A DNA stretch of 24,111 bases. Source: a virus. Each line of letters starts with the position of its first letter. Within the stretch, counting starts at the first letter, position 1. This document shows, piece by piece, positions 1 to 24,111 of this stretch. The translations under genes and the position numbers were made by a program. The stretch spans positions 1 to 24,111 of IMG/VR virus record IMGVR_UViG_3300031673_004415; one strand, 5' to 3'. The notes beneath the pieces were generated by a model. The model saw only the letters and a list, made by a program, of their open reading frames with translations. It did no database searches and was not told the DNA's origin.

Positions 1-1839
1 ACTATCATTACTATTATTAGGACCCGTTTGTGAACCAGTTTCAGCATCTCGGCCAAATAAAATTTTGGCAGTTATACCACCAACATTACTAACATCAAAG
101 GTCTCCGTTGTAGTTGAGTCTAAAACAACGGTATAACGATCCTCAGTTATACTCTTAATTTTAAAATATTTTTTTTCAGCTAAGTAATCACCCTCACTAC
201 CTAACTTAGGGTTTACATATATCCAATCATTTTTTGTATAAGTAGTTTTAACTCCAGAATAAACTTTATTTATTCCAGCATCATTTACCATATATCTTTT
301 AATTAAATTAAAAGTATCAATATCCACAACACCAGCCACCGCATTAGGTAAATCATTTCTATATTTAGTTTGAAAATCTATTACCGCAGTTTCAGTACCC
401 GTTTCAAATTTTCCATTAACAGGTATACCTAATTTTTGTTGTATTAATCTAACGTCATCACCTTTAGATTTTTTTGCTACCGATAATTCAAAAGCCGGTG
501 CTGGTATTGCCATTATTGATGCATAAGTTTCATCATCAACAACACCATCAATTCTTTTTAATCCTTTTTCTTTTTGGTGTTTAATTACTGCAGCTAATAC
601 CTGTGGACCAAAAGTAGGATTTTTTTCCGCAGGTAATCCTAATTTACTCATTATATTACCAACTTCCACACCTCTCTGTGGTTTGTCCTTATCATACTTT
701 AATTCAATCTCAGTTAATAAATTGTGTCTGAAACCTTTATGTCTATAACTTTCATTTGTTGCAAATTTCTTTTCACGTTCAGGATCTGTTGTTAATGCAA
801 TATTACCATCAATTACTATAACATCATCGTATTTCCAAATATCACTTTGAGATATTGACCATTTAACCCATTGTTCAGTTGTTGCATCAATCAGTAAAGG
901 TAATGTTTTATCAGTTTTTAAAAATTTAACAGGTTGTATGGTAGCATCATCATTTTTTACCATGATACCATATAAATATTTATCAATATTAGGATTATTT
1001 GTAAGTAAACTATAAACAGAAGAATTACCTTCATTAGTAGTTATTGTTTCATTTTTACCCAAAGCAGGATGTTTAGTTATCCAACCTTGATCATCCCAAC
1101 TACCTCCACCAGTAAGTTTTACTTTTAAATCTGCATCATTTTTATTTTTATCCTCAGCATCTTTTTTCTTTTTATCCGCAGCATCTTTAGTTATTTTATA
1201 TTTTTCTTCAAGTTGTTTTTTCCATACTCCATAATATTCATTACTATCACTTACCGCAATTGAGTTTTCAAATAAAGTTTCAATTGTTGTATAAAATTGA
1301 TTCCTTGCACCAGTTTTAGCATTTTCAATACCATAGTCACCACCAAATGATAGTGCACTAGTTCCAACCATACCCAAAGGGTATTTCCCCCCATTAAGTT
1401 TTTTAAATTTTGCATTTGCTGCACAAAAAGTGGGGAAATCACCTAAATTCTCAAGTCCTGAATTAATACTCTCAGTATTCATTCCGAATTCTAATAATTC
1501 ACCAAAAAGGTTCTGAGTAACATTACTTAGAGCACTTCCGGATTTAGTTGGTTTACCCATATATGTTTTTCCACAATAAATATTAATCAGTTCTTTTGCC
1601 GACTTTGAATCTTTATATATTTTTGCATTTTCTAAATATTCAAAACAAATTCCTCCCTCCGGACATGGTTCGTATGTCATACCAGTTACAATAGCTCCTT
1701 TGGGTACGGTTCCATGTTTAGATTTAGTTGTTATATCATAAGGAGTCACTTCTTGTAAATCCTCATTTAACAAACCATAACTTTCATTTAGACTTTGTCT
1801 AACAATACTTTTTAATAAACTATCTGTTATTCTTCTCAT
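1..1839 (-). CDS. Partial protein with two peptidoglycan-binding-like repeats; probable virion or cell-wall-acting protein
   Basis: The frame is open from an ATG at 1837-1839 through the left edge, giving 613 residues with the C-terminus missing. Residues 1-27 form a basic/amphipathic segment (MRRITDSLLKSIVRQSLNES) like the tag on other proteins here. Residues about 208-240 are a Lys/Asp-rich linker. Two modules near residues 386-444 and 458-515 look like PG_binding_1: the second has VRLIQQKLGIPVNGKF, then an FQTKY helix and GVVDIDTFNLI. This fold binds peptidoglycan in endolysins and tail-associated lysins. No catalytic lytic domain is visible in the part present. The start lies 3 bases after the stop of the small gene upstream, which has the same kind of module, so the two are probably co-expressed. 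The exact role (tail lysin, baseplate component or packaged protein) is inference. Confidence 0.85.
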   Translation of the reverse strand, partial: MRRITDSLLKSIVRQSLNESYGLLNEDLQEVTPYDITTKSKHGTVPKGAIVTGMTYEPCPEGGICFEYLENAKIYKDSKSAKELINIYCGKTYMGKPTKSGSALSNVTQNLFGELLEFGMNTESINSGLENLGDFPTFCAANAKFKKLNGGKYPLGMVGTSALSFGGDYGIENAKTGARNQFYTTIETLFENSIAVSDSNEYYGVWKKQLEEKYKITKDAADKKKKDAEDKNKNDADLKVKLTGGGSWDDQGWITKHPALGKNETITTNEGNSSVYSLLTNNPNIDKYLYGIMVKNDDATIQPVKFLKTDKTLPLLIDATTEQWVKWSISQSDIWKYDDVIVIDGNIALTTDPEREKKFATNESYRHKGFRHNLLTEIELKYDKDKPQRGVEVGNIMSKLGLPAEKNPTFGPQVLAAVIKHQKEKGLKRIDGVVDDETYASIMAIPAPAFELSVAKKSKGDDVRLIQQKLGIPVNGKFETGTETAVIDFQTKYRNDLPNAVAGVVDIDTFNLIKRYMVNDAGINKVYSGVKTTYTKNDWIYVNPKLGSEGDYLAEKKYFKIKSITEDRYTVVLDSTTTETFDVSNVGGITAKILFGRDAETGSQTGPNNSNDS

Positions 1840-1842
1840 ATC

Positions 1843-2055
1843 TTATCCTATTAAAGCATTTTTTATGGCCTTAAGGGTTAAAGGTCCTATTTTACCATCA
1901 GGATCCAACCCTGCGTTTTTATTTGAATTTAACCAATTTTGAATATTCACAGTGGAGTAATCTTGAGGCCCTTCTAATAAAACATTAGTCTTTACACCAT
2001 GTTTACTCAAAATGTCTCTGATTTCACTTTCCGTTAATTTTATTTTAGGTAACAT
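1843..2055 (-). CDS. Small tagged protein with a peptidoglycan-binding-like module (70 aa)
   Basis: The 70-residue product has two parts. Residues 1-29 carry the recurring segment KIKLTESEIRDIL and end at NVLLEGP. Residues 33-70 resemble one short PG_binding_1 repeat, with IQNWLNSN followed by DPDGKIGPLTLKAIKNAL, the D-G-K-x-G-x-x-T signature of that family. The gene lies 3 bases upstream of the large gene with two such modules, so they are probably one transcript and may share a structural or wall-binding role. LLE-G fits the consensus of T4-type prohead proteases (hydrophobic-x-Glu then a small residue), so the N-terminal part could be a cleaved propeptide; this is inference. A TATTTATA box stands 28 bases upstream of the ATG. 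Confidence 0.85.
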   Translation of the reverse strand: MLPKIKLTESEIRDILSKHGVKTNVLLEGPQDYSTVNIQNWLNSNKNAGLDPDGKIGPLTLKAIKNALIG

Positions 2056-2083
2056 AAATATTGCTTATTAAATTTATTTATTA

Positions 2084-2091
2084 TATAAATA
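2084..2091 (-). promoter_or_regulatory. TATTTATA box, candidate phage late promoter element
   Basis: TATTTATA on the coding strand, 28 bases upstream of the ATG at 2055. The same octamer at the same 28-base distance precedes the plus-strand gene at 12011. It is one of about ten such boxes in intergenic DNA in this window. The promoter role is inferred. Confidence 0.4.
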
Positions 2092-2114
2092 TAACCATAT
2101 AATAAAAAATAAAT

Positions 2115-2137
2115 AAAAAAAGGGAACATAAGTTCCC
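2115..2137 (-). terminator. Rho-independent terminator (minus strand)
   Basis: A perfect 6-bp stem GGGAAC/GTTCCC (2122-2127 with 2132-2137) and a 4-base loop are followed on the minus strand by seven T. It ends the transcript of the gene at 2203-2469 about 65 bases after its stop codon. Confidence 0.85.
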
Positions 2138-2144
2138 ATTTTAG

Positions 2145-2169
2145 GTCCGACATTGAATATATGTCTGAC
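2145..2169 (-). other. Imperfect hairpin in a 3' untranslated stretch
   Basis: The 147 bases between 2056 and 2202 hold no convincing ORF. Besides the terminator they contain an inverted repeat with 9-base arms (2145-2153 and 2161-2169, eight of nine paired) and a 7-base loop, lying between the stop of the upstream small gene and the terminator. It could stabilise the 3' end or be a small RNA element; no function can be read from it. Confidence 0.3.
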
Positions 2170-3989: not shown

Positions 3990-5546
3990 TTATCTATTAT
4001 TTGGTCTGAATCTCATTTGATTTGATTTTACTGCCGATCTTGAAAATCTTAATCCTTGACCTTGTTTTCTAGCATTTCCTAATGACCTTGCGTGTTCCGT
4101 CATTTCAACTTCAAAATTTGGTTCATATCTATTACCACTATCATTATTAATTTTTTCTTTCAAAACTCTAACAAATTCATTCTGTACCATCTTGGTAAAT
4201 TTAATATAAGGTGTATCATCTGACTCTTCATTATATTTGTATTTATCTTTAGGTGGTCTTTTAGATCTACCTAAATAACTTAAACCAGAAATGTTAGTAA
4301 TACATTTATGTCCCCCACTATTAGATTGAATTAAATCCCAAGCGTTTACACTAATAGAATCTAACATTCTCATTTCTTTATCTGTTAAATTACTGAATGG
4401 TTTTTTCATTGCCACTTCAACATCACCAAGTATATCTTCCCCATCGGCCATTTGTTTAAATTCTTTACCATATAAGGCGTTAAAATCTCTAAATGTAAAA
4501 CCAACTGATTGTTCACCAAAACCTTTTCCTGATTCTGATATCCATTTTATTGTAGATAATGAAATGTCCTTATCTTGTAATTGTGATTTCCACTTGTTTA
4601 AGACATCATCTTTGATCTCACCTAAGTTTACACCTTTAAGTGCTCTTTCTTTCTTAAATGGATTACAAGACGCTTGTACCAACCCTAACGGCCAAGCAAT
4701 CACCAAGAAGTCCGCATCAGGATTATTTCTGAATGGTGTGTATCTATCATATGATCCTGGTTTCATCATACTACCTCCACCATACTGAACTATAATTTTA
4801 TCATCAACTTTAACATTCTTGTGAGTTTTCATTGTTTGAACGTAACTCTCTTTGTTTTTTTCTAAATCTCCAACATCAGCATAACTTTTTTCTTTGATCT
4901 GAGATCTGATGTTTAACAATATACTTAATAACGATGGATTTGCATTCATCACAATATTTTCCAAGAACCCTGGTTTGTTTTTGAATGCCAATAATAATTT
5001 ATTGGCAACCATACCCATTATCATTTTGTTTCTTTGTAGTGATTGATCCTTATCTACCTTAAACAAATAGTTCATTACTTGTTCAGGACTAATATCATAT
5101 TGAGCATAATTTGCTGAGTCAACCGTAGATATCAAAGTGATATCGTCAGATGGGAAAATATCTCTTGGAGATACGGTTTGAGATATTGTCTCAACGTTAG
5201 ATCTTGACGATTTAAAATTAGTTGAGGTACCTTGTTCAACTCCCGCTTGTGTGTCGTGGTGGTCCGTATGTATAATAAACATTGGTTTACCGTGAGCAAA
5301 GTCAACTAACACCGGCATAACATCACCCTCAGCGTCCAACTTCTTAATTGCAAATTCCTTATCACCATATTGGATAATCTCAGAGTCAACAACTTTGATT
5401 CCATTTTGTTCTAAGTAACTTTTCATACCTAAAGCAGTGGTTACACCATCTAAATCTTGGTGAAAATATATCTTAGCCTCAGGGTATCTTTTAGATAATT
5501 CCCTGATGTTTCTTATTCCCGATTCCGTTATTAACTTTTTCTTCAT
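3990..5546 (-). CDS. DHH-family phosphoesterase-like protein (518 aa)
   Basis: The N-terminal domain is DHH-type: HQDLDGVTTA at residues 29-38 (D31 and D33), VDFAHG with D82, and HTDHHDT with D95-H96-H97. Near residue 411 is SGGHKCITNISG, resembling the GGH motif of the DHHA1 domain. These are the metal- and substrate-binding motifs of RecJ nucleases, oligoribonucleases and cyclic-dinucleotide phosphodiesterases. The segment between the two domains (about 110-400) is long and not recognised. The C-terminus is Arg/Gln/Asn-rich and probably disordered. Residues 1-15 (KKLITESGIRNI) resemble the E-S-x-I/L tag on other proteins here. The substrate is unknown; nucleic acid or nanoRNA is the likeliest. 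A TATTTATA box lies 3 bases before the ATG. Confidence 0.85.
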   Translation of the reverse strand: MKKKLITESGIRNIRELSKRYPEAKIYFHQDLDGVTTALGMKSYLEQNGIKVVDSEIIQYGDKEFAIKKLDAEGDVMPVLVDFAHGKPMFIIHTDHHDTQAGVEQGTSTNFKSSRSNVETISQTVSPRDIFPSDDITLISTVDSANYAQYDISPEQVMNYLFKVDKDQSLQRNKMIMGMVANKLLLAFKNKPGFLENIVMNANPSLLSILLNIRSQIKEKSYADVGDLEKNKESYVQTMKTHKNVKVDDKIIVQYGGGSMMKPGSYDRYTPFRNNPDADFLVIAWPLGLVQASCNPFKKERALKGVNLGEIKDDVLNKWKSQLQDKDISLSTIKWISESGKGFGEQSVGFTFRDFNALYGKEFKQMADGEDILGDVEVAMKKPFSNLTDKEMRMLDSISVNAWDLIQSNSGGHKCITNISGLSYLGRSKRPPKDKYKYNEESDDTPYIKFTKMVQNEFVRVLKEKINNDSGNRYEPNFEVEMTEHARSLGNARKQGQGLRFSRSAVKSNQMRFRPNNR

Positions 5547-5549: not shown

Positions 5550-5557
5550 TATAAATA
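5550..5557 (-). promoter_or_regulatory. TATTTATA box next to the start codon
   Basis: TATTTATA ends 3 bases upstream of the ATG at 5546. This is so close that, if it is a -10 type element, the mRNA would be leaderless; alternatively it acts in translation start. Confidence 0.4.
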
Positions 5558-5672: not shown

Positions 5673-5698
5673 AAAAAATCCCATTTAATTAAATGGGA
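5673..5698 (-). terminator. Rho-independent terminator overlapping a stop codon
   Basis: A perfect 8-bp stem (TCCCATTT with AAATGGGA, 5679-5698), an AATT loop and six T on the minus strand. The TAA of the methyltransferase gene (5685-5687) lies in the stem and loop, so the hairpin encodes the last residues of the protein. It ends the long operon that starts at 10351. Confidence 0.9.
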
Positions 5699-6536
5699 GT
5701 TCTTTTATTTGTTCTAAAGCTTTGAAATAATTAATTCTTGTTTCGGCAATTTGTTTGTAATTCTCACTCAACTCAATACCTAACCACCTACGTTCTAATA
5801 TCTGAGCCGCCACTAATGTTGTTCCTGAACCAGCAAATGGATCTAATATTACATCGTTCTTGTAGGATAGTATCTTAATAGCTTTGGTCGGTATGTCCAT
5901 TGAGAAAGTCGCCTTGGTGAGTGATTTAGTATCTGCAAAGTAATTCCACTGACCAAACACAAGTTCCATAAACTCTTTCTTATCCTTCTCCTCATATACA
6001 ATTTTTTTCTTTAATGACCCATCTTCCTGTTCAATGTCAGTAGGTGTCCCTTTCCACTGAGGTTCTCCTTTAACCTTTTTAATGTGGTGTTTTTTGTATG
6101 CCAATATTACACACTCCTTTGGATTATAAATATACGGACTTGATGGACTCATCCAAGAACCCCAAGCAGTAGTCTTACTTCTATGTGGCGATTGTTCTTC
6201 AAGATCAACGATACCAAAGAATCCAAATCCAATTTGTTTCATTAACTGGTACATCTCAGAAACAAAGAAAATTCTCCCACCTTTCTTTTGTCTGTTAATC
6301 TCATAAGGAATGTTAAGAGCAATACGACCATCATCCTTTAACACGTTGTAAGCCTCAGTTAACCAGTTCTTAGCGAATACTAAATACTCATCAAATTCAA
6401 CATCATCGTCGTGAACATCATAAGCAATACCGACACCATATGGAGGTGATGTACAAATTAAGTCCACAGATCCTTCAGGTAATGTTTTCATTACTTCAAT
6501 ACAATCCCCACTTATAATTTTTCCTGTTTCTATCAT
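5685..6536 (-). CDS. DNA methyltransferase, beta class (N4-cytosine or N6-adenine)
   Basis: The 283-residue enzyme transfers a methyl group from S-adenosylmethionine to an exocyclic amino group in DNA. The catalytic motif IV is TSPPYG at residues 29-34, and the SAM-binding motif I is LDPFAGSGTT at about 231-240. This order (catalytic first, SAM-binding last) defines the beta class; S-P-P-Y is common in N4-cytosine enzymes but also occurs in N6-adenine ones. The variable part between the motifs (about 120-200) should hold target recognition. No restriction nuclease is adjacent, so protection of phage DNA or regulation is more likely than a restriction-modification pair. It is the last gene of the operon, 5 bases after the acidic 68-residue gene, with a leader ending AAATAAAAAA. 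Confidence 0.93.
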   Translation of the reverse strand: MIETGKIISGDCIEVMKTLPEGSVDLICTSPPYGVGIAYDVHDDDVEFDEYLVFAKNWLTEAYNVLKDDGRIALNIPYEINRQKKGGRIFFVSEMYQLMKQIGFGFFGIVDLEEQSPHRSKTTAWGSWMSPSSPYIYNPKECVILAYKKHHIKKVKGEPQWKGTPTDIEQEDGSLKKKIVYEEKDKKEFMELVFGQWNYFADTKSLTKATFSMDIPTKAIKILSYKNDVILDPFAGSGTTLVAAQILERRWLGIELSENYKQIAETRINYFKALEQIKELPFN

Positions 6537-6541
6537 TTTTT

Positions 6542-6748
6542 TTATTTAATACTTTCTAAATAATCCCATACTTCATTTGAAAACTCTTCGTAAAGGTCTC
6601 CATCCTCATCATCCGATAAATCAACAATGTATTCATCAACACAATGTTCAACAATCATCTCGTGTATTTCCTCAAACTCTTTATCAGTTTGTTTTAAGGC
6701 ATCATATTGATCCTGAATATGATTTTTTTGTTCTTCTGTTAGTTTCAT
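6542..6748 (-). CDS. Small acidic protein of unknown function (68 aa)
   Basis: The product is strongly acidic and predicted helical (MKLTEEQKNHIQDQYDALKQ at the start, then a DLSDDEDGDLYEEF cluster). No motif, membrane segment or metal site is recognised. Acidic phage proteins of this size can be DNA mimics or inhibitors, but nothing here proves that. The gene lies 6 bases after the membrane-protein gene and 5 bases before the methyltransferase gene, so all are translated from one transcript. The leader ATTTAAATAAAA before the ATG is the A-rich type seen at other starts here. Confidence 0.8.
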   Translation of the reverse strand: MKLTEEQKNHIQDQYDALKQTDKEFEEIHEMIVEHCVDEYIVDLSDDEDGDLYEEFSNEVWDYLESIK

Positions 6749-6754
6749 TTTTAT

Positions 6755-7075
6755 TTAAATTATACTTGTTATTGCTTGAGCTAGTTTATATCCTGTGAAG
6801 GCACCTATTGCGGCCGAACCCGGTAAAACAATAAACTTACCCAACATAGTTTCATATTTTTTCCTATTAACAATATAAGAAATTAATATATAATAAGCAA
6901 TGTAGTTGATTAAAACCAAAAAGTCCAGTTCTTTTGCCACAAAAACTACAATTGAGTTTCCAAGAAATCCCCACATAAAATTAATAAGGGTTTCACGAAT
7001 AAGTTCACCGGGAGTTGTTATTGCCCCTAACACATTTATCTCTTTTGATAAACCTTTTTTATTTTTCACCACCAT
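6755..7075 (-). CDS. Small membrane protein (106 aa)
   Basis: The sequence has a polar N-terminus of about 25 residues and then about three hydrophobic segments: near residues 33-48 (FMWGFLGNSIVVFVA), 50-68 (FLVLINYIAYYILISYIV) and 82-105 (FIVLPGSAAIGAFTGYKLAQ). It is therefore probably an inner-membrane protein. Size and topology would allow a holin-like role, but there is no lysis neighbour and the C-terminus lacks the charged tail common in holins. The 17-base overlap with the end of the sugar-nucleotide dehydratase gene indicates translational coupling. Function unknown. Confidence 0.75.
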   Translation of the reverse strand: MVVKNKKGLSKEINVLGAITTPGELIRETLINFMWGFLGNSIVVFVAKELDFLVLINYIAYYILISYIVNRKKYETMLGKFIVLPGSAAIGAFTGYKLAQAITSII

Positions 7076-7994
7076 ATTGTCTATCTAAGTAATCAAACAA
7101 ATTTAAAAACTTAGGAACCTCCCCATTTTTAGTTATGTAATATTCTCTTAGTTTTGTACAATTAAGACCATATTTCCTATCATGACCTAATCTGTCTTCA
7201 ACGTATTTAACATCAACCTCTTTGTTTAAAATATAAGAAATATTTTTAATAATGTCCAAATTTGTCACTCTGAAAGTTGTTCCAATATTATAAGTGGTGT
7301 TTACAATCTCATCGTCAAACATTAAATCACAAATGACTTTTACATTATCATAAACATACATCCATTCTCTAACTTGTAATCCGTCACCATAAACTGGAAT
7401 TGGTTTACCTTCACTAATAGATCTTGCAATTGTCGGTAAGAATTTTTCCTCAAACTGATGTTCACCAAAATTATTACAAGTTCTTGTGATGAGATATGGT
7501 AATCCATAAGTTCTATTAGCAGATAAAACTAACATATCAGATGCCGCTTTAGTTGCGGAATAATATGAACTAGACTTTAAACTATCATCTTCAGTTGCCG
7601 TATGATCAATTGAATTATGTTCATTCATATCACCATATACCTCATCAGTTGAAATGTGTATGAATTTTTTAAGGTTCTTATTTTTTCTTGATATCTCCAA
7701 TAAATTAAATGTTCCTTCAACATTAGTTCTAACAAATGGTAATCCGTTTTTAATTGAATTATCTACGTGTGATTCGGCAGCAAAGTGAACAATGTAATCA
7801 AAATCGCCAAGTTCATCTGCCGTTACATCACAAATGTCTCTTTGTAAGAAATACAATCCGTGTTTAATGTTATTTAATTTTCCAGCATATGTTAGTTTAT
7901 CAATACAAAGAACATCACATTCAAAGTTATCTAATAGGTGATTTATAAATGCGGATCCTATAAACCCCGCTCCTCCTGTTACTACTATTTTCAT
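7059..7994 (-). CDS. rmlB: dTDP-glucose 4,6-dehydratase-like NAD-dependent enzyme
   Basis: The 311-residue protein is an extended short-chain dehydrogenase. It has the NAD-binding TGGAGFIG at 6-13, DKLTYAG at 32-38 (typical of RmlB), HFAAESHVDNSI at 70-81, catalytic STDEVYG at 115-121, YSATK at 145-149, and late motifs VREWMYVYD (208-216) and DRLGHDRKYGL (267-277). RmlB converts dTDP-glucose to dTDP-4-keto-6-deoxyglucose, the precursor of rhamnose and amino-deoxy sugars. The frame extends to 8033, but MKIVVTGG is the normal N-terminus and its ATG forms an ATGA overlap with the DUF3310 stop. No other rhamnose-pathway gene is in the window, so the product must feed host enzymes or genes elsewhere. 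A related epimerase activity cannot be excluded. Confidence 0.9.
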   Translation of the reverse strand: MKIVVTGGAGFIGSAFINHLLDNFECDVLCIDKLTYAGKLNNIKHGLYFLQRDICDVTADELGDFDYIVHFAAESHVDNSIKNGLPFVRTNVEGTFNLLEISRKNKNLKKFIHISTDEVYGDMNEHNSIDHTATEDDSLKSSSYYSATKAASDMLVLSANRTYGLPYLITRTCNNFGEHQFEEKFLPTIARSISEGKPIPVYGDGLQVREWMYVYDNVKVICDLMFDDEIVNTTYNIGTTFRVTNLDIIKNISYILNKEVDVKYVEDRLGHDRKYGLNCTKLREYYITKNGEVPKFLNLFDYLDRQYGGEK

Positions 7995-8266
7995 TTTTTC
8001 TCTAATGTTTCTATATGATGTTGCAAGTACCATAATGCTTTCTTAAGGTCCTGTAACTCTTTATCCGATTCTTTCTTACCAGCTCTTGATATATACTTAA
8101 CCGTATTACCCAATGAGAATCCTAATTCCCAAGCATCAATTACCTTGATTGCTTCGTATAGGTTTTCTTCACCTCCGTAATGTTGGGGGTGATTTACTTG
8201 TTCTATTTTTATTGGTGGACACTCACAAAATACGTTAGCTCCACATACACATTCTTTTTCCATCAT
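7991..8266 (-). CDS. DUF3310 protein (phage nucleotide-kinase-related family)
   Basis: Residues about 23-88 match DUF3310: VNHPQHYGG, then IKVIDAW, LGNTVKYISRAGKK, and the helix DLKKALWYLQHHIE. The family is common in phages and related to the C-terminal part of T7 gp1.7, a nucleotide kinase; the biochemical role of the short members is not settled. Unusually, residues 6-16 add a Cys-rich N-terminus, CVCGANVFCECPP, with two C-x-C pairs that could bind zinc. The gene shares ATGA overlaps with glutamine synthetase upstream and the dehydratase downstream, so it sits firmly in the operon. A second ATG directly follows the first. Confidence 0.88.
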   Translation of the reverse strand: MMEKECVCGANVFCECPPIKIEQVNHPQHYGGEENLYEAIKVIDAWELGFSLGNTVKYISRAGKKESDKELQDLKKALWYLQHHIETLEKK

Positions 8267-9381
8267 TCTTCTCTATATTCTTTTAATAATTCATCATTTG
8301 AAATTGTTCCGTATTTTTCATTAAGTCCTTCCATATCAAAATCCTTACTCATCATTATTTTAACGTCGTAGATTTGATCGGTAGTATTTAAAGATATGTC
8401 AATTTCTTTAATAATTTTATATGGGTCAGCATTTGAACCAGGTCTTCTATCCTCAACATAACCTTTCCAATTTTTTGCGGTATCTCTTGGAATTCTAATT
8501 GATGCTCCACGATCTGAAACCCCCCAACTAAATTTATCAATTGATTGTGTTTCAAATTTACCAGTTAAACGAAGATCGTTATCTGACCCGTAAGCTTTAA
8601 TGTGAGCCTCATGTCTTACCTCAAACGCATTAAACAATGATATAAAATATTTTTCGTTACCATCATTTCTCATTTTATCTGTGGAGAAATTTGTATGAAG
8701 TCCAGATCCGTTCCATTCTCCTTTTTGAATTGGTTTTGGGTGTAGATGAATCCCATAATTATATTTTTCAGATATTTTATACAAAAAGTATCTAGTCATC
8801 CACAAATCATCACCCGCCTTTAATTTACCTTTTGAAAATACTTGGTATTCCCATTGACCTAAGGCAACCTCAGCGTTGATCCCTGTAATATCAATTCCGT
8901 ATTTTAAACACATATCCATATGTTCCTCAACAAAATCTCTTCCTGCGACATATTCACCAACACCACAATAATATTTACCTTGTGGTTCCAAGTTGTTTTC
9001 ATCATGACCTAAAATACATTTGTTTTTTCTATCATAGATAAAATATTCTTGTTCAAACCCAAACCACAAATCTTCTTGATCTCCAATTAGTTTTGATCTT
9101 GTATTAGTTTCGTGTGGCGTACCATCAGAATTCATTACTTCACACAACACGTAAATTGTGTTTGTATGATCACAAAAATAATGTCTAACAGGTATTAAAA
9201 TACAATCAGAACTATTACCTTCCGCTTGTAATGTTGATGATCCATCAAAGTTCCATTCAGGGAAATTATTTAGAACTAAACAATTTTTAATTTGTTCATA
9301 GTCCACAATTTTAATCTTACTTCTAAGATTTGGTTCAGGTGTATACCCATCAATCCATACATATTCTAACCTAACTTTCAT
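8263..9381 (-). CDS. glnII: Glutamine synthetase type II (eukaryotic-like GSII)
   Basis: The 372-residue enzyme makes glutamine from glutamate, ammonia and ATP. All GSII blocks are present in order: WNFDGSST (43-50), FGFEQEYF (107-114), GINAEVALGQWEYQV (167-181), NGSGLHTNFST (224-234), RLTGKFET (271-278), FSWGVSDRGASIRIP (284-298) and EDRRPGSNADPY (310-321). The metal- and substrate-binding Glu, His and Arg of these blocks are kept and the length is near the family norm, so it looks active. One local change is QVFSKG where QVGP is usual. The type is GSII, not the long GSI or GSIII common in bacteria. It is embedded in a phage operon with ATGA overlaps on both sides, so it was recruited as an auxiliary metabolic gene. 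A gamma-glutamyl ligase activity on another amine is an alternative. Confidence 0.95.
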   Translation of the reverse strand: MKVRLEYVWIDGYTPEPNLRSKIKIVDYEQIKNCLVLNNFPEWNFDGSSTLQAEGNSSDCILIPVRHYFCDHTNTIYVLCEVMNSDGTPHETNTRSKLIGDQEDLWFGFEQEYFIYDRKNKCILGHDENNLEPQGKYYCGVGEYVAGRDFVEEHMDMCLKYGIDITGINAEVALGQWEYQVFSKGKLKAGDDLWMTRYFLYKISEKYNYGIHLHPKPIQKGEWNGSGLHTNFSTDKMRNDGNEKYFISLFNAFEVRHEAHIKAYGSDNDLRLTGKFETQSIDKFSWGVSDRGASIRIPRDTAKNWKGYVEDRRPGSNADPYKIIKEIDISLNTTDQIYDVKIMMSKDFDMEGLNEKYGTISNDELLKEYREE

Positions 9382-10392: not shown

Positions 10393-11928
10393 TTAGTCAA
10401 TTCTCATTACAACAAAAGTTGAATCATTAACTGAAACGGTATCATATTCATTGTTGTAACTACTTATTACACCATAATCATTCTCATCAACTAAATCATT
10501 TAATAAACTTTGTCTATCTATAAAATTATTATAGTCATCACCCATTTCATCTAACCAACCCATTGGATCATCTTTAATTTCACCTAACCTATCCTCAACG
10601 GCTTCCTCAATTTCACTCTCATTTAAGTCACCATCTGGGTCATCTCTTATATCTTGTATTTCTTCGTCTATACCTTCTATTTCATTTTCAATTTCTTCAA
10701 CCCTTGATTCATTATCCGACTCATGTTCACCATCCTCATCTTCATCTTCATAAGTTACTGACTCAACTTTTTTACCATTTTGGTAAATTTGCCATTTATT
10801 TTCAGACCATTCAACAACTAAAATGTTATTCATGTAATCATTAAATTTGAAGTACTTAAGACTTTCAACCCCTTCTTCAGTAAGAGGAGATCTAGCTCCA
10901 CTTGAAATCAAATATGTTTCTATTTGAAGGAACCTTTTTTGGTTTTGTAATTTTTTAATTTCATTATCTTGACTACCGCTAGTTTCCCTACTAACATCAT
11001 AATTTTCAGGATCGTCCATAACCCATTCACGAATCGCTTCTTCATAATATTCGGCAACTTCGTCACCATCAATATGGTAAGATAAAGTATTTTTACTAAA
11101 ATTACTTAAATCATTTACCATTTCATCATAATACTCTTCAAGAGAACTATCCGCCTCCCTTTCAGTTCCAACCGCATAAACATTACCACTAGAATTATTA
11201 TGTATTGACCTAAATGTATATAAGTCATAATGGGAACCCTCAGGCATTAAATCATACACATCATTATCTTTATCCTTAAGTTCATCAATCTCTGATTGTA
11301 AATCATTTTGTTCATTCTCCAATTCATCAACAATTTCAGAATCTTCCTCGTTATCTATTCTTTCCTCAAGTTCTTCCATTCTTCTTTCCAAATCTTCTAA
11401 TTCTTCACGTTCTGGCCCATCTAAATATTCAATATCACCTTCTTGAACCATATAGTCAAAAACTGCATTTGCCATTAAACCTTCATCATCAATATTAGAA
11501 TTATTTAGATCCCATTCACTATCTTCTCTTCTTTGTCTGGCTTCAGCCCTTAAAGCCATTTCTTTTCTTCTATCAAGTTCTTTACTATATGGTGTGTCCC
11601 AATAACTTAAACTACCACCAACTGTTACACCCTCAAGATTTACAATACCTGAGGAACGAAGATTTAAATCACCAGTCACAATTAACTCACCCAAATTAGT
11701 TACTTGTTTTAAACCCATCAAGGGTAAGTTACCATTTACTCTTATCTTTTTACCCTTGAAATCAGGAAACTTAGGAATCGCTTGTGCTTTATAATTAACA
11801 GACTTTAATAGATCCATATATTCTTGTGGAGTGAAATCTTCATACTCAACACTATCATCTTGTTCAACAATAATATTCTTAATCATCTCAATTAAATCAC
11901 TCTCGTTAATCCTTACAACTTTTTTCAT
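10393..11928 (-). CDS. Tagged acidic coiled-coil protein, likely virion-associated (511 aa)
   Basis: The frame reaches 12039, but MKKVVRINESDLIEMIKNII at 11928 is the natural start and carries the clearest copy of the recurring N-terminal segment, ending IIVEQDD. Residues 60-110 show short beta repeats (GLKQVTNLGELIVTGDLNL, then GSLSYWDTP) like a small beta-solenoid. Residues 115-140 are Arg/Glu-rich (RQRREDSEWDLNN). Acidic coiled coils lie at about 172-220 and 405-428. The protein is very acidic overall. I do not know a named family. The mix of a tag, a solenoid and coiled coils suggests a packaged or tail-associated protein rather than an enzyme. An AT-rich box (TATTTATT) ends 5 bases before the ATG. 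It is divergent from the small gene at 12011. Confidence 0.85.
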   Translation of the reverse strand: MKKVVRINESDLIEMIKNIIVEQDDSVEYEDFTPQEYMDLLKSVNYKAQAIPKFPDFKGKKIRVNGNLPLMGLKQVTNLGELIVTGDLNLRSSGIVNLEGVTVGGSLSYWDTPYSKELDRRKEMALRAEARQRREDSEWDLNNSNIDDEGLMANAVFDYMVQEGDIEYLDGPEREELEDLERRMEELEERIDNEEDSEIVDELENEQNDLQSEIDELKDKDNDVYDLMPEGSHYDLYTFRSIHNNSSGNVYAVGTEREADSSLEEYYDEMVNDLSNFSKNTLSYHIDGDEVAEYYEEAIREWVMDDPENYDVSRETSGSQDNEIKKLQNQKRFLQIETYLISSGARSPLTEEGVESLKYFKFNDYMNNILVVEWSENKWQIYQNGKKVESVTYEDEDEDGEHESDNESRVEEIENEIEGIDEEIQDIRDDPDGDLNESEIEEAVEDRLGEIKDDPMGWLDEMGDDYNNFIDRQSLLNDLVDENDYGVISSYNNEYDTVSVNDSTFVVMRID

Positions 11929-11933: not shown

Positions 11934-11941
11934 AATAAATA
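11934..11941 (-). promoter_or_regulatory. TATTTATT, variant of the TATTTATA box
   Basis: One mismatch from the recurring octamer, ending 5 bases before the ATG at 11928, the same placement as at 3640 and 12218. Confidence 0.35.
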
Positions 11942-12010: not shown

Positions 12011-12151
12011 ATGGGATGCGGATGTAAAAATAAAGCCAATCAACAACCTGTACAGGCACCTCAACAATCTCCACAACAACCAGCTCCAAGCCAATCTTCG
12101 GTTCAAGAGTCGGTAAAGAAAATTGTTGAGAAGTATTACAACAAAAAGTAA
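12011..12151 (+). CDS. Small Cys/Gln/Pro-rich protein (46 aa)
   Basis: ATG to TAA encodes 46 residues. The start is MGCGCKNKANQQP, with a C-x-C pair, the middle is Gln/Pro/Ser-rich (QQSPQQPAPSQSS), and the end is a basic amphipathic helix (SVQESVKKIVEKYYNKK). It is flanked by a TATTTATA box 28 bases upstream and a strong terminator 25 bases downstream, so it has its own transcription unit, which argues it is real despite its size. The N-terminal Cys pair could bind metal or be lipid-modified, though there is no signal peptide. A virion or membrane-peripheral role is speculation. Confidence 0.75.
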   Translation: MGCGCKNKANQQPVQAPQQSPQQPAPSQSSVQESVKKIVEKYYNKK

Positions 12152-12205: not shown

Positions 12206-12213
12206 TATTTATA
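12206..12213 (+). promoter_or_regulatory. TATTTATA box next to the start codon
   Basis: Lies between the terminator T-run and the ATG at 12218, ending 4 bases before it. The terminator directly upstream means this gene needs its own promoter, and this box is the only candidate seen. Confidence 0.45.
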
Positions 12214-12217: not shown

Positions 12218-13312
12218 ATGAATGATATTGAAGAACTAATTGAAGAATTTAATGAAGGTAATTGGAATGGTATATCCAAAATATTCAATAATAAGATTGA
12301 AGTATTTTTAAGTTTTATACTTAGAAAAGGTTTAATTGATGAGTTAGAATTGTCCAGCATACCTTATAATAACGCACCTTCATTTAACTTTTTGGTTAAA
12401 ACAAAAATTTTAGATAGATTTGAATATAAATCTATACCAGAAATTCTTGAGAATGATTTTCTTTTGTATAAAATACAACAGGATCCTGAAGTTTGGTTGG
12501 AATGGCTAACTAAAAATATTCTAAGGGATGTTGAAAGAAGATCGGATGGGTATTACCTACGATTAAGAGACCGTACAGAACTTGCCGAACTATTTGATGA
12601 TAGTGGTCGTGATGCTACGGCAAAAGACGCAGCAGAACGTGTATTAGGTGAAGATTACTGGGAAGATTTTTACGATTCAACCCATAATGTTTATGAGGAT
12701 GTAATTGAAGAATTAGATGTTGAAAATGTTATAAAATTAAGAAATCATATATTTAGAGAAATTGGTAATGTTGAGTTTTCGTTAGAAAAATATGACTCAG
12801 AGTTTTTTGAAGGTTTATCTGAAGAACAAGGAACCGAAGGTTATTTCATAATCAAAGAAACCGATTTAGATGAATTGATTAAGAATGAAGAAGCAATGAA
12901 ACAACTTCTAGATGATGATTTAAATGAATTAAAAAGTGAATTATACAATATTCATAGTAATGCATATAATGGGGCATACCAAAGTGAAATATATGGTTTA
13001 ATTTGGTCAGAGTTGGATATACACTTTGTTGGTAGAGTAATTGACGAACAAACCAAAATAGGTGAAACAACTAAATGGTTACAATATGTTAAAATACGTG
13101 ACTTACAAGGTAATGTGGAAAAATTTCTTTCCAATCGTTTGGGTAGTGAATATAATGAAGATAAATTAGATTACGAAGGTAGTTATACAACTATGATGAA
13201 ACGACTAATGGATGATGGTGAATACGATTGGTTAGACTTTAGAATACCTGATTATCCAGATTATTGGTTAGTTTCCAAAGACATAAATGATATATTTGGA
13301 GACTATATTTAA
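12218..13312 (+). CDS. Acidic phage protein of unknown function (364 aa)
   Basis: A soluble, acidic, helix-rich protein starting MNDIEELIEEFNEGNWNG. It has no Cys, no signal peptide and no membrane segment. Many aromatic and acidic pairs occur (EDYWEDFYDS, DYPDYWLV at the C-terminus). I see no enzymatic motif and cannot name a family. It lies directly after a terminator and before the 229-residue gene on the same strand, 51 bases apart, with a further TATTTATA box in the gap. Position among likely late genes suggests a structural or packaged protein; this is inference. Confidence 0.85.
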   Translation: MNDIEELIEEFNEGNWNGISKIFNNKIEVFLSFILRKGLIDELELSSIPYNNAPSFNFLVKTKILDRFEYKSIPEILENDFLLYKIQQDPEVWLEWLTKNILRDVERRSDGYYLRLRDRTELAELFDDSGRDATAKDAAERVLGEDYWEDFYDSTHNVYEDVIEELDVENVIKLRNHIFREIGNVEFSLEKYDSEFFEGLSEEQGTEGYFIIKETDLDELIKNEEAMKQLLDDDLNELKSELYNIHSNAYNGAYQSEIYGLIWSELDIHFVGRVIDEQTKIGETTKWLQYVKIRDLQGNVEKFLSNRLGSEYNEDKLDYEGSYTTMMKRLMDDGEYDWLDFRIPDYPDYWLVSKDINDIFGDYI

Positions 13313-15885: not shown

Positions 15886-16182
15886 TCAATTAAGTATGAT
15901 ATCCCCAAACTTAGTCTTTTGAATAAATCCTTTCACTTTGTTTGTATAACTTAATTTTTGGTTTAATTCAGGTGATTTAAGTTCAACAACAACATCTATA
16001 ATCTGTTGTTTGGTTAATACAAAGTCTTCACCTTTCTCATAGTTCTCAATAGATTTTTCTTTCATCTTTTGAAAGAATTCTTCTTTTTGTACCTCACCAA
16101 CAAGATTCATAAAATCACCTGGATTTTTTTCAAAGAAGGTTATTAGTTGACTAATATAAATTTCTATGTCTACGTTCATCAT
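15886..16182 (-). CDS. Small protein of unknown function (98 aa)
   Basis: A charged helical protein (ISQLITFFEKNPGDFMNLVG, then QKEEFFQKMKEKSIENYEKG) with a basic C-terminus ending KTKFGDIILN. No family is recognised. The frame extends to 16203, but the ATG at 16180-16182 forms a TAATG overlap with the stop of the 629-residue gene, a classic coupled start, so I use it. A second ATG directly follows. It is probably a partner of the large leucine-rich-repeat protein. Confidence 0.78.
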   Translation of the reverse strand: MMNVDIEIYISQLITFFEKNPGDFMNLVGEVQKEEFFQKMKEKSIENYEKGEDFVLTKQQIIDVVVELKSPELNQKLSYTNKVKGFIQKTKFGDIILN

Positions 16183-18071
16183 TAAGATCTTATAGGTCCA
16201 CAATGTTTCTTCAATTCAGGAGGGAAATTGATAAACCAAAATCCTTCATCCTCTGTCATATATTCTTCTAATTTTTTAGGTATTCTCATACCAGGATTTG
16301 AATTCTCCGTTGAGAAGAAGTTCAAACAATACAATTCACCAAACGCCTCAGGAATACTTTCCAATTGTGGGTTATTAGGTAAGTTTATAAATTTCAATTT
16401 TGTACAATTTCCAATACTTTCAGGGATTGACTTAACCATATTATCAATAATCAATGTTTTTAATTCGGTTAATTTACCAATACTTTCTGGTAAATCCAAG
16501 GCAATTGGAGTTTTACTTGTATTTTCCATTTGGATCATAGTCGTATTAGATGGAATATGATCAAAGAAATCATCAAACCCAAATAATGCAACATACTTAG
16601 AGTTATCATCTTTTGGATATTCAAGACCAACATAACCACTACTACTAACTCCGGCCAATTGACCTGAGAATTTTTCTCTTAATTTTTTCTTATTCTCTCT
16701 CATTATAGGACTATTGATGAATGCAATATCGGCATCATTCAATTGACTTAAACTTTTTGTCATCAACCCTTGAAGTTTTCTTGCCGCATAATATTTCAAA
16801 ACACTAGGTTCAGAATCATTGATCATTTCAGCAGTCAAGTCCATTCCCAACCCTAAGTATTTGTTTTTAAGATTTTCGGTAAAGTTACGATAAATTTCAT
16901 TACCATTAGTTCTATATGTTAAATCAGGACTTGAAAGCTCAAGCCACATTTCAGCCGCTTGTTCACTACCAAGTTCTTTAATCGCATCTTTATTGATAGT
17001 AGTATTTTTGTAGTCATTCAGTACTTTTTGTTCAGCAGAACTCAATGGGTCCGCAACAAACAAATGTTCTTTACCTTTTAATTTTGGAACTTTACTTACA
17101 ATTGTACTCCAATCCTCTCTTCTATGACCTGAATAACCTCCAGACATATTTTGACCATCAGCAATTCTTTTTCCACCATAAGGTTCAACTAAGATAACAA
17201 CTGCGTAGTTAAGGTCACCAAATGCTTTATCTTTATCAATAACATAATAAATTGTTAAGTTATGTCCCAAACGATAGTTATAATACATATTACCACCACC
17301 TGATTTAGATATACACCAACTTCTTCCGTTAGCCAATTTAATACATTGTTCCTTACCACTTGGTTTGAAGATTAATAAGTTATCATCATCATATATTGTT
17401 TCAATGTCAGAATAATCATCTTTTGTATCTTTAATGTCATCAGTTAAATCTCCCATACCATCTAATGTATGTTCAAGTTCATCAAAACTCATAAACAACA
17501 ATGGTGGTAAATTTGCAGGTAACCTATGATATAGATCCAAATATGTTGAAACATAATAAATTAATTGTTCAGGTGTCACATTAACCTTGTCATCTTTAAA
17601 TTTCTTAAGTGCCGCTGATGTTAACATAGTATTAAACTTACTCTGTAAAAACTCAACCAATTTCAAATAAGGCATTTTAAGAACGTCTCTTTGATTAATA
17701 GGTAATATTGGAAACAATTCGTAAAACTTACGTAATGCAAATTTAACCGCATTTTTGTCGGATCCTTTATTGGCTTCCATATATTTTTTGAATATACTTT
17801 TTTCTTGTTTTTTTATCTCCTTTGATAAAACAATATTCTTAACTATAGTATAAGTTAATTTGGTAATATCTCTTTGATCTTGAGGTAACCCATTTTTATA
17901 TTTCTCAAATGCGCTAATAACTGCCGTAATTTGTTCTTCAGTATCTCTAGTTGTAGGTTTGAATTTATCTATTAAAAATTTAATGACTTTTTCTGCCATC
18001 GCCTCACTTACAAGACGTTTACCGTTTGTGTTTTCTTTAATGACATTTGATAATACCTTAAGTAATTCCAT
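16182..18071 (-). CDS. Large protein with C-terminal leucine-rich repeats (629 aa)
   Basis: The N-terminal 14 residues (MELLKVLSNVIKEN) are amphipathic and may be a variant of the tag. Residues about 20-180 are helical and basic. A compact block at 232-295 has GRSWCISKSGGG, NMYYNYR and LTIYYVIDKD and looks like a separate folded domain; it has W-C-x-S and Tyr-rich motifs that I cannot name. The C-terminus (about 525-586) has three leucine-rich repeats of 22-24 residues with LPESIGKLTELKTL, IPESIGNCTKLKFINL and IPEAFGELYCL, like plant- and Leptospira-type LRRs that bind proteins. Such repeats in a phage suggest a receptor-binding, structural or host-interaction role. A TATTTATA box lies 13 bases upstream. 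It is followed by a coupled 98-residue gene. Confidence 0.88.
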   Translation of the reverse strand: MELLKVLSNVIKENTNGKRLVSEAMAEKVIKFLIDKFKPTTRDTEEQITAVISAFEKYKNGLPQDQRDITKLTYTIVKNIVLSKEIKKQEKSIFKKYMEANKGSDKNAVKFALRKFYELFPILPINQRDVLKMPYLKLVEFLQSKFNTMLTSAALKKFKDDKVNVTPEQLIYYVSTYLDLYHRLPANLPPLLFMSFDELEHTLDGMGDLTDDIKDTKDDYSDIETIYDDDNLLIFKPSGKEQCIKLANGRSWCISKSGGGNMYYNYRLGHNLTIYYVIDKDKAFGDLNYAVVILVEPYGGKRIADGQNMSGGYSGHRREDWSTIVSKVPKLKGKEHLFVADPLSSAEQKVLNDYKNTTINKDAIKELGSEQAAEMWLELSSPDLTYRTNGNEIYRNFTENLKNKYLGLGMDLTAEMINDSEPSVLKYYAARKLQGLMTKSLSQLNDADIAFINSPIMRENKKKLREKFSGQLAGVSSSGYVGLEYPKDDNSKYVALFGFDDFFDHIPSNTTMIQMENTSKTPIALDLPESIGKLTELKTLIIDNMVKSIPESIGNCTKLKFINLPNNPQLESIPEAFGELYCLNFFSTENSNPGMRIPKKLEEYMTEDEGFWFINFPPELKKHCGPIRS

Positions 18072-18084: not shown

Positions 18085-18092
18085 TATAAATA
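18085..18092 (-). promoter_or_regulatory. TATTTATA box, candidate late promoter element
   Basis: Lies 13 bases before the ATG at 18071, in the short gap after the Dam-like gene. Confidence 0.4.
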
Positions 18093-22057: not shown

Positions 22058-22121
22058 TTTTTAAATGTATTTTATTGTTTATGTAATTTAATTATACCTC
22101 ACTAACTTACCTTAGTAAATA

Positions 22122-22589
22122 CTATAGTACCAAATTTTTATCCAAACTCCTGTAAATATTAAGTATCATATCTAAATCAGATTGGGTAAATGGTTTATCT
22201 AAGTCAAACACATCTCTAAAGAAAACATTAATAGAATCTTTAATTTTTTTATCAACCTGATTATAATATATTTCAGAAAAAAATGATTGGAAGTGATCAT
22301 AATGTTCACCCCTTCTGTTGAAGGTTACGTTTTCCAAATTAAAACTATCTATTGTTTTATCCCAACACCAATCAAAGTGTTTATTCTTATCTTCTTCGGT
22401 CATCAATACTTTGGTTTCATTAAAACCATCGTCATCACCAAGATAAGTCTCTAAAATTAATTTATGTATGGATATAGAGAAATCATAATATAATTCCATC
22501 TTCTCAGGGATAATATTGTTGATGCTAAACCAAATCTCAATATCCTCCTGATTTAATTGTTTTGATATGTAGTTAAAAAAATTGTCCAT
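22122..22589 (-). CDS. Phage protein of unknown function (155 aa)
   Basis: An acidic soluble protein starting MDNFFNYISKQLNQEDIEIW, with aromatic-rich helices (FSINNIIPEKMELYYDFSI) and HFDWCWDKTIDSF in the middle. No domain is recognised. Its start codon lies inside the 3' arm of a terminator-like hairpin, and the T-run encodes Phe4-Phe5, so expression may depend on how that hairpin folds. The next ATG in frame is at residue 31, which would remove the helical N-terminus, so I keep this start. Confidence 0.8.
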   Translation of the reverse strand: MDNFFNYISKQLNQEDIEIWFSINNIIPEKMELYYDFSISIHKLILETYLGDDDGFNETKVLMTEEDKNKHFDWCWDKTIDSFNLENVTFNRRGEHYDHFQSFFSEIYYNQVDKKIKDSINVFFRDVFDLDKPFTQSDLDMILNIYRSLDKNLVL

Positions 22590-22610
22590 AGATTAATACC
22601 TATGGACAAT
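22575..22610 (-). terminator. Terminator hairpin covering a start codon
   Basis: A perfect 11-bp stem (ATTGTCCATAG with CTATGGACAAT, 22581-22591 and 22600-22610), an 8-base loop, and seven T on the minus strand. It lies 28 bases after the stop at 22638, so it can end that transcript. The ATG of the gene at 22589 is in its 3' arm. Confidence 0.8.
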
Positions 22611-22637
22611 GATAATACCTAATTATGTAATTGTAAA

Positions 22638-24111
22638 TTATTGAGTGTTTTTCTTATAAGACATTAAATCCATAATACGTGTATAATCCTCATTGATTTT
22701 TTGTTTTTTCTTTTCATCAATAGATTCTAACTTAGCCATAATTTTATCCCCCGCATTTTCACCTGATTTATCAGTTACAACAGGTTGAGGGGCTTTATTG
22801 TACGCTTTACGTTTAATTTTAGCCAATAAATTATCTTTTCTAATCTTATTTCTCTTCTCGTTATTTGGTGTCTCAACTGCGTTTGCCCATTCAGGATTAT
22901 TACCCGTTCTTGAAGACCCAACAACGTTGTCAGTTACCCAATCTTCATCAGGATGGATTTCATCGTAATCTAAGTTTTCTAAACCAGCGGCAGTGAAGTT
23001 ATCAATATAATCTTCAATTGCCCCTGAAGCAACATAAGCCTTTTTAGACATTTCTTCTAATTCACCATTTCCTTTTGGAAAGTTTTTTGGTGACATTTCG
23101 TATTTACCTTTAGACCCGTCTTTCAAATAATCTTTCATTTTTTTGGTCAAATCTTTCATATAACCTTCTTCATTTTTTTTTGACGTTTTAATAGATCTTT
23201 CATATTCAGCATATCCAGCCGGTGTCTTACCTTTATTGAATTTACCTTCTTCTTTTAAAACAATATTCTCAATCATTTCTTCAAACTGACTTTCATTAAA
23301 TAAAAGTTTTTCTCTTTTACCATTTACTGCAGTTGTTAATTCATAAAACACATTTTCATTTACATCTTCTTTTTTGTCTTTTCTTAACATTTTGAAGTCC
23401 TGTGAATCTAATCTTCCATTATGGTTCTTATCAATTCTTTTTTGGTTTCCGTATAATTTTTCATCCAACTCAACTTCGTTCATGTCATCTTCAACATCAT
23501 TATGTCTGTTTTTACGAGATCTCATAGCCATAGCATCTCTCATAGGAGTTTTAAATTTACCTTTATTAGATCTTATAGCATCTCTCATAGGAGTTCTAAA
23601 TTTACCTTTATGAGATCTAATAGCATCTCTTATAGGAGTTTCAAAATCCATTTCGTCATTTTCTCTTATTGATCCACCTGACTTTTTACCAAGTTCTTCA
23701 GATTTTCTTTTTGCTGCCAATAATGGTAAATAAACATATTCATTCCACTCACTATCACTATCAATATCACCGTCTAAGTCATCCAATAATGTTTCTCCAG
23801 GATAATTTTCCTCGTATCTTTTAATAACACTACAAAAGTCAGGAATTGTTTTAAGTTGACTTAGAGCGTCTTTGATTGCGTCTTCATCAGTTCCCCATCC
23901 TCTAACCGCATCGTAAAGTTTTTTTGATATTGAATCTAACGTACCTCCATTCATGGTTGATTTACCCATACCCTTTGTTTTACAAGCGTCAAATATTTTT
24001 TTAACACCGTTATAAGAACCTCCAGAACCGTGTAATAATCCTGCCGCGGCACCTACTACACCACCTATTACACCACCTATTAATGCACCTCCTCCTATCC
24101 CAACCGGCCCT
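22638..24111 (-). CDS. Partial modular protein: Gly-rich, annexin-like, EF-hand-like and tag segments
   Basis: The frame is open through the right edge; 490 residues are visible and the N-terminus is outside the window. The ATG at 23969 is not needed as a start, because the upstream codons continue in frame as a Gly/Val-rich hydrophobic stretch (GIGGGALIGGVIGGVVGAAA). Counting from that Met: residues 17-76 resemble one annexin-type repeat (LYDAVRGWGTDEDAIKDAL, then VIKRYEENYPGETLLDDL); 109-153 are three 15-residue repeats with TPxRDA; 180-192 (DKNHNGRLDSQDF) fits an EF-hand calcium loop; and 220-241 (KLLFNESQFEEMIENIVLKE) is an internal copy of the tag seen at the N-terminus of other proteins. 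The rest is charged and low-complexity. Probably a virion or packaged protein; an annexin relationship is only suggested. Confidence 0.82.
   Translation of the reverse strand, partial: GPVGIGGGALIGGVIGGVVGAAAGLLHGSGGSYNGVKKIFDACKTKGMGKSTMNGGTLDSISKKLYDAVRGWGTDEDAIKDALSQLKTIPDFCSVIKRYEENYPGETLLDDLDGDIDSDSEWNEYVYLPLLAAKRKSEELGKKSGGSIRENDEMDFETPIRDAIRSHKGKFRTPMRDAIRSNKGKFKTPMRDAMAMRSRKNRHNDVEDDMNEVELDEKLYGNQKRIDKNHNGRLDSQDFKMLRKDKKEDVNENVFYELTTAVNGKREKLLFNESQFEEMIENIVLKEEGKFNKGKTPAGYAEYERSIKTSKKNEEGYMKDLTKKMKDYLKDGSKGKYEMSPKNFPKGNGELEEMSKKAYVASGAIEDYIDNFTAAGLENLDYDEIHPDEDWVTDNVVGSSRTGNNPEWANAVETPNNEKRNKIRKDNLLAKIKRKAYNKAPQPVVTDKSGENAGDKIMAKLESIDEKKKQKINEDYTRIMDLMSYKKNTQ
23511..23645 (-). repeat. 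45-bp tandem repeat, three copies
   Basis: Three adjacent 45-bp units encode FETPIRDAIRSHKGK, FRTPMRDAIRSNKGK and a diverged FKTPMRDAMAMRSRK. The near identity at DNA level points to recent duplication in a charged, probably disordered linker. Confidence 0.85.

Follow-up and report, generated by a model that had tools for sequence, protein, structure and literature searches.

A recurrent N-terminal leader ending in [ILV]-x-E on unrelated proteins of large phages: a probable capsid-targeting propeptide

The virus record IMGVR_UViG_3300031673_004415 (IMG/VR), analysed here over its whole length of 24,111 bp with 34 called genes (the window), encodes several proteins that begin with a similar short peptide, and the locus raises the question of what this shared N-terminal leader, or tag, is for. 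The question matters since the proteins injected by giant phages are hard to know, most of their genes having no recognisable function. We regard it as very probable that the tag is a capsid-targeting propeptide similar to the capsid-targeting sequence (CTS) of phage T4, with a new sequence. The original prediction, made from the letters of the window, had proposed such an equivalent of the T4 signal; its N-terminal position and the presence of protease genes support the proposal, and promoter sharing and conservation of the cleavage site add to this sequence-based case. The kind of tag is known from T4. Its sequence, extent and clade are undescribed as far as literature searches went: no paper was found that pairs 'LTESDL' with 'phage', and none on such a tag by title or start of abstract, with subscription papers outside the search.

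All five segments reported originally were found in place, four at the starts of the genes beginning at 1839, 2055, 5546 and 11928 and one as an internal copy (Table 1). A hydrophobic-x-Glu ending had been claimed for two of them; it closes all four N-termini (LNE, LLE, ITE and IVE). For the DHH protein starting at 5546 the proposed alignment on I/L-x-E-S is out of register, the Glu of its ES being the end of the leader (LI-x-E/SGIR, where the slash marks the predicted cut) and not part of TES. Homologs of 26 of the 34 window genes occur in the same arrangement in G003, a phage record of 304 kb, where they lie at 286-304 kb and 0.6-8 kb, and because of this colinearity the question could be put to large genomes. 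These were G002-G006, G010 and G001 (400 of 412 kb), with gene starts taken from a simple gene caller. A further set of 81 loci consisted of the window and 80 IMG/VR relatives (L094-L173, from at least 120 stretches), many of the sampled loci being fragments.

A seed covering only the first half of the tag gave 277 matches among 4,761 called proteins, corresponding to 213 distinct tagged proteins with the consensus MKKVIRLTESDLTRIVKRVINE/. These fall into 119 body clusters according to phmmer or 126 according to blastp, 102 of the 126 being seen once. The original prediction called the bodies unrelated, but for the products starting at 1839 and 2055 this may not hold: both resemble peptidoglycan-binding repeats by eye, with a Pfam match for the 613-aa protein only. 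In the 81 loci the first ten positions gave 55 matches to a motif expression per 7,970 residues, the next ten gave 3 per 7,970, and later bins 0 to 1.3 per 1,000; near-identical N-termini had been removed from this count, while homologs such as the DHH family still entered it several times. The corresponding figures are 10 in 3,080 residues for the first ten positions versus 14 in 88,156 from position 20 onward for G002, and 12 in 3,580 versus 12 in 83,048 for G003. The predicted enrichment at N-termini is therefore present beyond chance in all three sets. A scanning artefact was considered and ruled out, as the enrichment recurs in separate genomes. The seed finds 4 to 12 tagged genes in each of the seven large genomes. 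Per genome, 20 to 54 more proteins have a [hydrophobic][ILV]xE site at the N-terminus than in a downstream control stretch, so that the full tagged set may be in the tens. A tblastn search of annotated phages with a 24-residue consensus gave no match, a query this short finding only near-identical copies.

Alignment of the 126 blastp-cluster representatives on the Ser of TES gave MKK[IV]IRLTESDLTRIVKRVI[KN]E, a tag of about 22 residues with a basic start followed by an amphipathic helix that ends in [ILV]-x-E. Counted from this Ser, Glu is found at +12 in 105 representatives and [ILV] at +10 in 117, and the information content drops from 2.77 bits at +12 to 1.09 at +13 and 0.39 at +14, with 0.39 or less beyond. 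Conservation of the first half is partly built in by the search pattern in the 80 relative loci; the second half was not used for selection. The site [ILVM]xE at +10 to +12 is present in 98 of the 119 phmmer clusters, versus 2 of 44 look-alikes that lie inside proteins and share the TES core, and a background of 1.8% of positions, and [ILVMF]xE occurs anywhere from +3 to +21 in 116 of the 119. A longer form, seen in 7 of the 126 representatives (from G001 and other records), has four extra residues, equal to one helical turn, before [IL]-x-E, one of the seven ending in V-x-E (TVDE). There is also a short form, MKIIITESQLKFINE/, and leaders of 7 to 28 residues keep the same ending. Selection works mainly at the level of the peptide: in 104 tags, third codon positions are 0.55 identical and positions 1 and 2 0.77. 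In the AlphaFold2 model of the 511-aa product of the window, residues 1-25 have low confidence, a detached helix of residues 9-22 ends at E22, and the confident body starts around residue 28-31. Homologs of this protein retain [ILV]xE with Q, E or a similar residue behind it, including those in which the first half of the tag is replaced.

A protease matching such a site is encoded by phages of this clade. The family of the T4 gp21 prohead protease (PF03420) was found above cut-off in 15 of 24 records, which were chosen for length among the contigs of the relatives; all 12 that reach at least 187 kb have it, and none of 14 control genomes does. The gp21-like protease that the original prediction called for thus exists. 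Its columns for the catalytic His, Ser and Asp align with those of T4 gp21 in five records. In G003 the genes for terminase, portal, protease, scaffold (assigned by position, with [IL]-x-E sites) and capsid follow one another in this order, which from portal to capsid is that of T4. For the capsid protein the PDB search gave chains labelled gp23 (E 8e-25), and its 23 distinct N-termini show LINE/A in 22 cases and LINE/S in one, the counterpart in T4 gp23 being FLTE/AEIGG. According to two papers, gp21 cuts after L/I-x-E, the first 10 residues of the internal protein IPIII are enough for targeting, and T-even phages vary widely in their internal proteins while conserving the targeting sequence (PMC9026906, PMC3012670). 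In a review, two jumbo-phage groups are likewise listed with a gp21-family peptidase (PMC7824862).

The tagged genes further share an upstream word, TATTTAT, with head and tail genes. It lies within 60 nt upstream of 30 of the 32 tagged genes with intergenic space versus 373 of 1,122 other genes (p 2e-12), and an 80-nt rule gives 30 of 32 and 421 of 1,166. The total in the window is not unusual (24 versus 20.8 expected), so that placement rather than count matters: the word is found within 40 nt of 5 of the 34 called genes, those starting at 2055, 5546, 11928, 18071 and 12218, and the gene at 1839 closely follows the one at 2055. For comparison, late and early genes were hand-picked from the annotation of Flavobacterium phage immuto before the test, and their orthologs were taken in the clade genomes. 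Within an 80-nt stretch TATTTAT occurs at 31 of 40 rows of head and tail orthologs (30 of 39 distinct genes) and at 1 of 30 replication and metabolism orthologs (p 1e-10), genes with less than 40 nt of upstream space (24 of 64 late, 19 of 49 early) being set aside. When all genes are kept, the numbers are 39 of 64 late (38 of 62 distinct) versus 2 of 49 early; one ORF each in G004 and G010 was matched by two late queries. The shared promoter word may reflect late expression of the tagged genes together with the head genes.

The predicted cleavage site is also visible in the DHH family. In all 28 listed DHH N-termini (27 distinct) a Glu stands directly before SGIR, SGLR, GGIR or EVGLR; the residue before this Glu varies (T, K, S, N, L, V or F) and is itself preceded by I or L. 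Most of these leaders have 7 to 10 residues and the longest has 19, an example from G006 being MKMVITESQYKRLLNE/SGIRNI. A DHH homolog that is 44% identical is encoded by LR745206.1, a 634-kb phage, and bears the T4-like leader MISKYNQFINE/; the same enzyme family therefore carries the leader type that is used by its own phage, as judged by these N-termini. The window protein has no family in Pfam or NCBIfam, and one homolog has a Pfam match below cut-off. Its AlphaFold model is of low confidence as a whole (pLDDT 62.8), with residues 1-11 below pLDDT 50. A fold search with this low-confidence model gave an uncharacterised H. pylori protein as best match (E 1.5e-4), followed by RecJ (2.6e-4) and other DHH proteins. 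The C-terminus of the DHH protein (window 3990-4150, about residues 467-518) contains a second shared module, ..EYARTLKNARQQGVGLRFPKSAIKSNPSRFRPYNR, which recurs at the C-terminus of proteins at 239298 in G006 and 192755 in G004 and internally at 97421 in G005. This module is modelled as disordered, and the matches of many DHH homologs end before it.

Among the 126 carriers Pfam recognised 14 families, one protein each, and most carriers, whose median size is 146 aa, have no known family. The families include an alpha/beta-hydrolase family, phage lysozyme, LysM, PG-binding and Fe/Mn superoxide dismutase (SOD); the Pfam matches were not resolved per protein, and the esterase, lysozyme, LysM and PG-binding carriers were assigned by eye. 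PADLOC gave four weak families among the carriers, one protein each. In the esterase/hydrolase-like carrier the tag ends at residue 21, and residue 26 is the first one covered by a weak PDB match (E 0.0064); for the presumed lysozyme carrier PDB matches are confined to the C-terminal part, which is mostly LysM. The SOD of G010, the only SOD ORF so compared, matches PDB entries with E 4e-60. A SOD motif search of the seven genomes and LR745206.1 found six ORFs, in G002, G003, G004, G005, G006 and G010, and none in G001 or LR745206.1. Directly before the SOD region these six have the predicted sites LLTE/M, FLTE/M, VVAE/A, FIME/M, IISE/I and FINE/M. All six have the promoter word, and an [IVL]xE/S site follows the SOD domain in 4 of the 4 ORFs with a readable tail; the tag seed matches, loosely, only the one of G010. 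The SOD is possibly a packaged antioxidant enzyme, to judge from these sites.

The route that such a propeptide implies would be as follows. Late in infection the tagged proteins would bind to the prohead core via the helix (by eye, the N-terminal region of the putative scaffold, ..MKQEIKELVKESLNE/Q in G003, is itself tag-like), the shell would close around them, and the protease, once activated, would cut after the Glu, upon which the leader would leave. The proteins so freed would stay packed with the DNA and reach the next host along with it, the payload including the DHH-like enzyme, superoxide dismutase, the esterase and cell-wall-binding proteins. From sequence we infer the lateness, the binding of the helix to the core, the cleavage at Glu, the presence in virions and the injection of the tagged proteins.

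Several observations weigh against a capsid-targeting propeptide. The tag is unlike the T4 sequence MKTYQEFIAE, with which MKKVIRLTESDLTRIVKRVINE by eye shares essentially the final [IL]xE, and most carriers have no known function, so that the term payload is extrapolated from a few. Glu is not at +12 in 21 of the 126 representatives; 14 of these have [ILVM]xE at +9 to +24 and 7 have none. PF03420 was not found in 9 of the 24 records, namely 7 contigs of less than 100 kb that bear DHH and two records with the tag (171 and 127 kb), nor in the window record, which is a 24-kb fragment colinear with G003, where the protease is encoded. The promoter tests use orthologs from related genomes, which are not independent, and their p-values are overstated; the head-cluster region alone is weakly enriched (11 of 20 versus 373 of 1,122, p=0.054), and the one testable tagged gene of G001 lacks TATTTAT. 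At the codon level, third positions are more alike (0.555 identical) than the 0.439-0.469 expected from background codon choice, and synonymous codons are somewhat less varied than background at 14 of 15 tag positions, clearly so at three. Probably, then, some tags derive from others by copying, or codon usage close to the start is under constraint.

The tag might instead mark proteins of the prohead core or scaffold that, like T4 gp67 and gp68, are chopped up and expelled during head maturation and are not injected cargo. Many carriers are indeed small and have no known function, as would fit this explanation, and the family of the open-ended ORF at 22638-24110 resembles a core polyprotein: its six homologs have N-terminal leaders ending in [ILV]xE (the start of the window ORF lies outside the window), and an internal [ILV]xE site is present in 7 of 7 aligned sequences, the window and six homologs. 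The putative scaffold also shows a similar helix-plus-site pattern. However, the carriers include whole enzyme-like domains (superoxide dismutase, esterase-like and DHH/RecJ-like) with sites at the domain edges, and the large share of body clusters found only once, in a sample with many fragments, is unlike a conserved set of assembly proteins. We consider this explanation improbable.

Less probable still is that the helix serves to direct or attach the proteins elsewhere, for example to the membrane, the tail or a replication compartment, with [ILV]xE no more than a part of the helix. Its amphipathic character and basic start would suit such a role, but conservation stops at the Glu, leaders of 7 to 28 residues share the ending, a site of this kind is also present in the capsid protein, and the protease is encoded in every searched record of at least 187 kb. 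Least likely of all is a DNA-level cassette without a peptide signal, in which a promoter and the 5' coding leader together would serve expression or the acquisition of genes: the upstream word common to the tagged genes, the excess identity of third codon positions and the codon choice restricted at three of 15 positions speak for it, but third positions are far less alike than the first two, and tagged genes closely behind another gene often lack TATTTAT yet keep the tag peptide.

A capsid-targeting propeptide can be compared with several known systems. The T4 CTS, found on IPI, IPII, IPIII and Alt and processed by gp21, is likewise N-terminal, occurs on unrelated proteins, ends in L/I-x-E and is accompanied by a gp21-family protease and a gp23-family capsid protein in the genome. 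The clade tag differs in having about 22 residues instead of 10 and another sequence, in occurring on a minimum of 119 body clusters where T4 has a few proteins, and in being found in records of up to 412 kb. The uncultured phage LR745206.1 has 26 proteins with leaders such as MIKKYLQFIKE/ in the first residues, as compared to 31 matches in the rest of its proteins. These leaders (Y..FI.E, M..KY.QFI.E) are T4-like and unlike the clade tag, for which the same genome gave 2 matches in 8,690 residues of the first ten positions and 1 seed match in 869 proteins; a weak gp21-like match (20 bits, below cut-off) lies inside a 707-aa ORF at 198546. Flavobacterium phage immuto (NC_055915.1), by capsid protein the closest named isolate with a known Bacteroidota host, has an annotated prohead protease and gp23. 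Four of its proteins (L352-L355) have another leader sequence, like M.NFDLKKFLVENKLT..LLKE and M..F[DN]L[KR][KS]FL[VT]EN[RK]LT, followed by an [IL]xE site, and 0 of its 208 called proteins match the tag seed. The giant phages phiKZ and SPN3US are similar in that head propeptides are cut after Glu by prohead proteases of their own and head proteins are ejected, whereas SPN3US has an A-x-E site and no shared tag of the clade kind is described in the available text (PMC5694885).

These comparisons touch on a broader proposal, towards which we lean slightly: head-protein addressing in gp21/gp23-type phages may consist of interchangeable dialects, in which each lineage has its own leader and the [ILV]-x-E cut is kept. 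On acquisition, genes for cargo (DHH, superoxide dismutase and numerous families without known function) would receive the local leader or exchange their own for it, huge Bacteroidota phages would be protein-delivery particles with tens of effectors, including superoxide dismutase freed from its precursor in the head, and the leader would allow the payload to be read from metagenomes. If the leader is a packaging address, a sequence search lists candidate injected proteins for each clade genome and predicts their mature N-termini, and phage heads would have a second address, unrelated in appearance, by which proteins can be loaded. In T4, a host restriction enzyme is inhibited by internal protein I (PMC3012670), and infection of one E. 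coli strain requires IPIII (PMC9391042); therefore the carriers without known function are natural candidates for early anti-defence or takeover proteins.

The clade is predicted to infect Bacteroidota, by transfer of a host assignment. In all 11 records with a bS21 match (of 17 records; 10 matches over cut-off), the bS21 gene is on the strand opposite to the protease and at most about 1.6 kb away from it, and the same arrangement is described for bS21-encoding huge phages of freshwater Bacteroidetes in lakes, for which the available text does not mention a leader or tag (PMC9723584). A host scan of the genomes gave one match, a 3.2-kb contig in a metagenome-assembled genome labelled Alphaproteobacteria.

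Table 1. Tags, leaders and TATTTAT words in the window (a slash marks the predicted cut)
Feature	Position	Strand	Remarks
Tag variant MRRITDSLLKSIVRQSLNE/SYGLLNE/	1762..1839	-	613-aa PG_binding_1 product; two candidate sites, E19 and E26
Tag variant MLPKIKLTESEIRDILSKHGVKTNVLLE/	1972..2055	-	70-aa product 1843-2055
TATTTAT	2085..2091	-	Upstream of the 2055/1839 gene pair; another at 2109-2115
Short leader MKKKLITE/	5523..5546	-	518-aa DHH/RecJ-like product 3990-5546
TATTTAT	5551..5557	-	Upstream of the DHH gene
511-aa tagged product	10393..11928	-	No Pfam or NCBIfam family; fold search without significant PDB match (best E 0.98)
Canonical 22-residue tag MKKVVRINESDLIEMIKNIIVE/	11863..11928	-	511-aa product 10393-11928; predicted cut after E22
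TATTTAT	11935..11941	-	Upstream of the 511-aa tagged gene
TATTTAT	12206..12212	+	Upstream of the 364-aa gene
Weak candidate leader MNDIEELIEE/	12218..12247	+	364-aa product 12218-13312; regular-expression match; promoter word 12 nt upstream
Short leader MELLKVLSNVIKE/	18033..18071	-	629-aa leucine-rich-repeat product 16182-18071; absent from the original prediction
TATTTAT	18086..18092	-	Upstream of the 629-aa gene
Internal tag-like copy KLLFNESQFEEMIENIVLKE/	23250..23309	-	Inside the open-ended ORF 22638-24110

Other parts of the window show the following. The 629-aa protein with leucine-rich repeats weakly resembles the repeat regions of type III effectors (NCBIfam, far below cut-off). The region 5685-9381 contains host-type genes, among them a DNA methyltransferase (NCBIfam) and, by eye, a nucleotide-sugar dehydratase-like protein and a glutamine synthetase. 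A 46-aa ORF at 12011-12151 on the plus strand (MGCGCKNK..), not kept by the gene caller, has a tag-like helix at its C-terminus, QSSVQESVKKIVEKYYNKK, which is comparable to the C-terminus ..NESLEKLVKKIIREIVQD of the protein at 127606 in G002.

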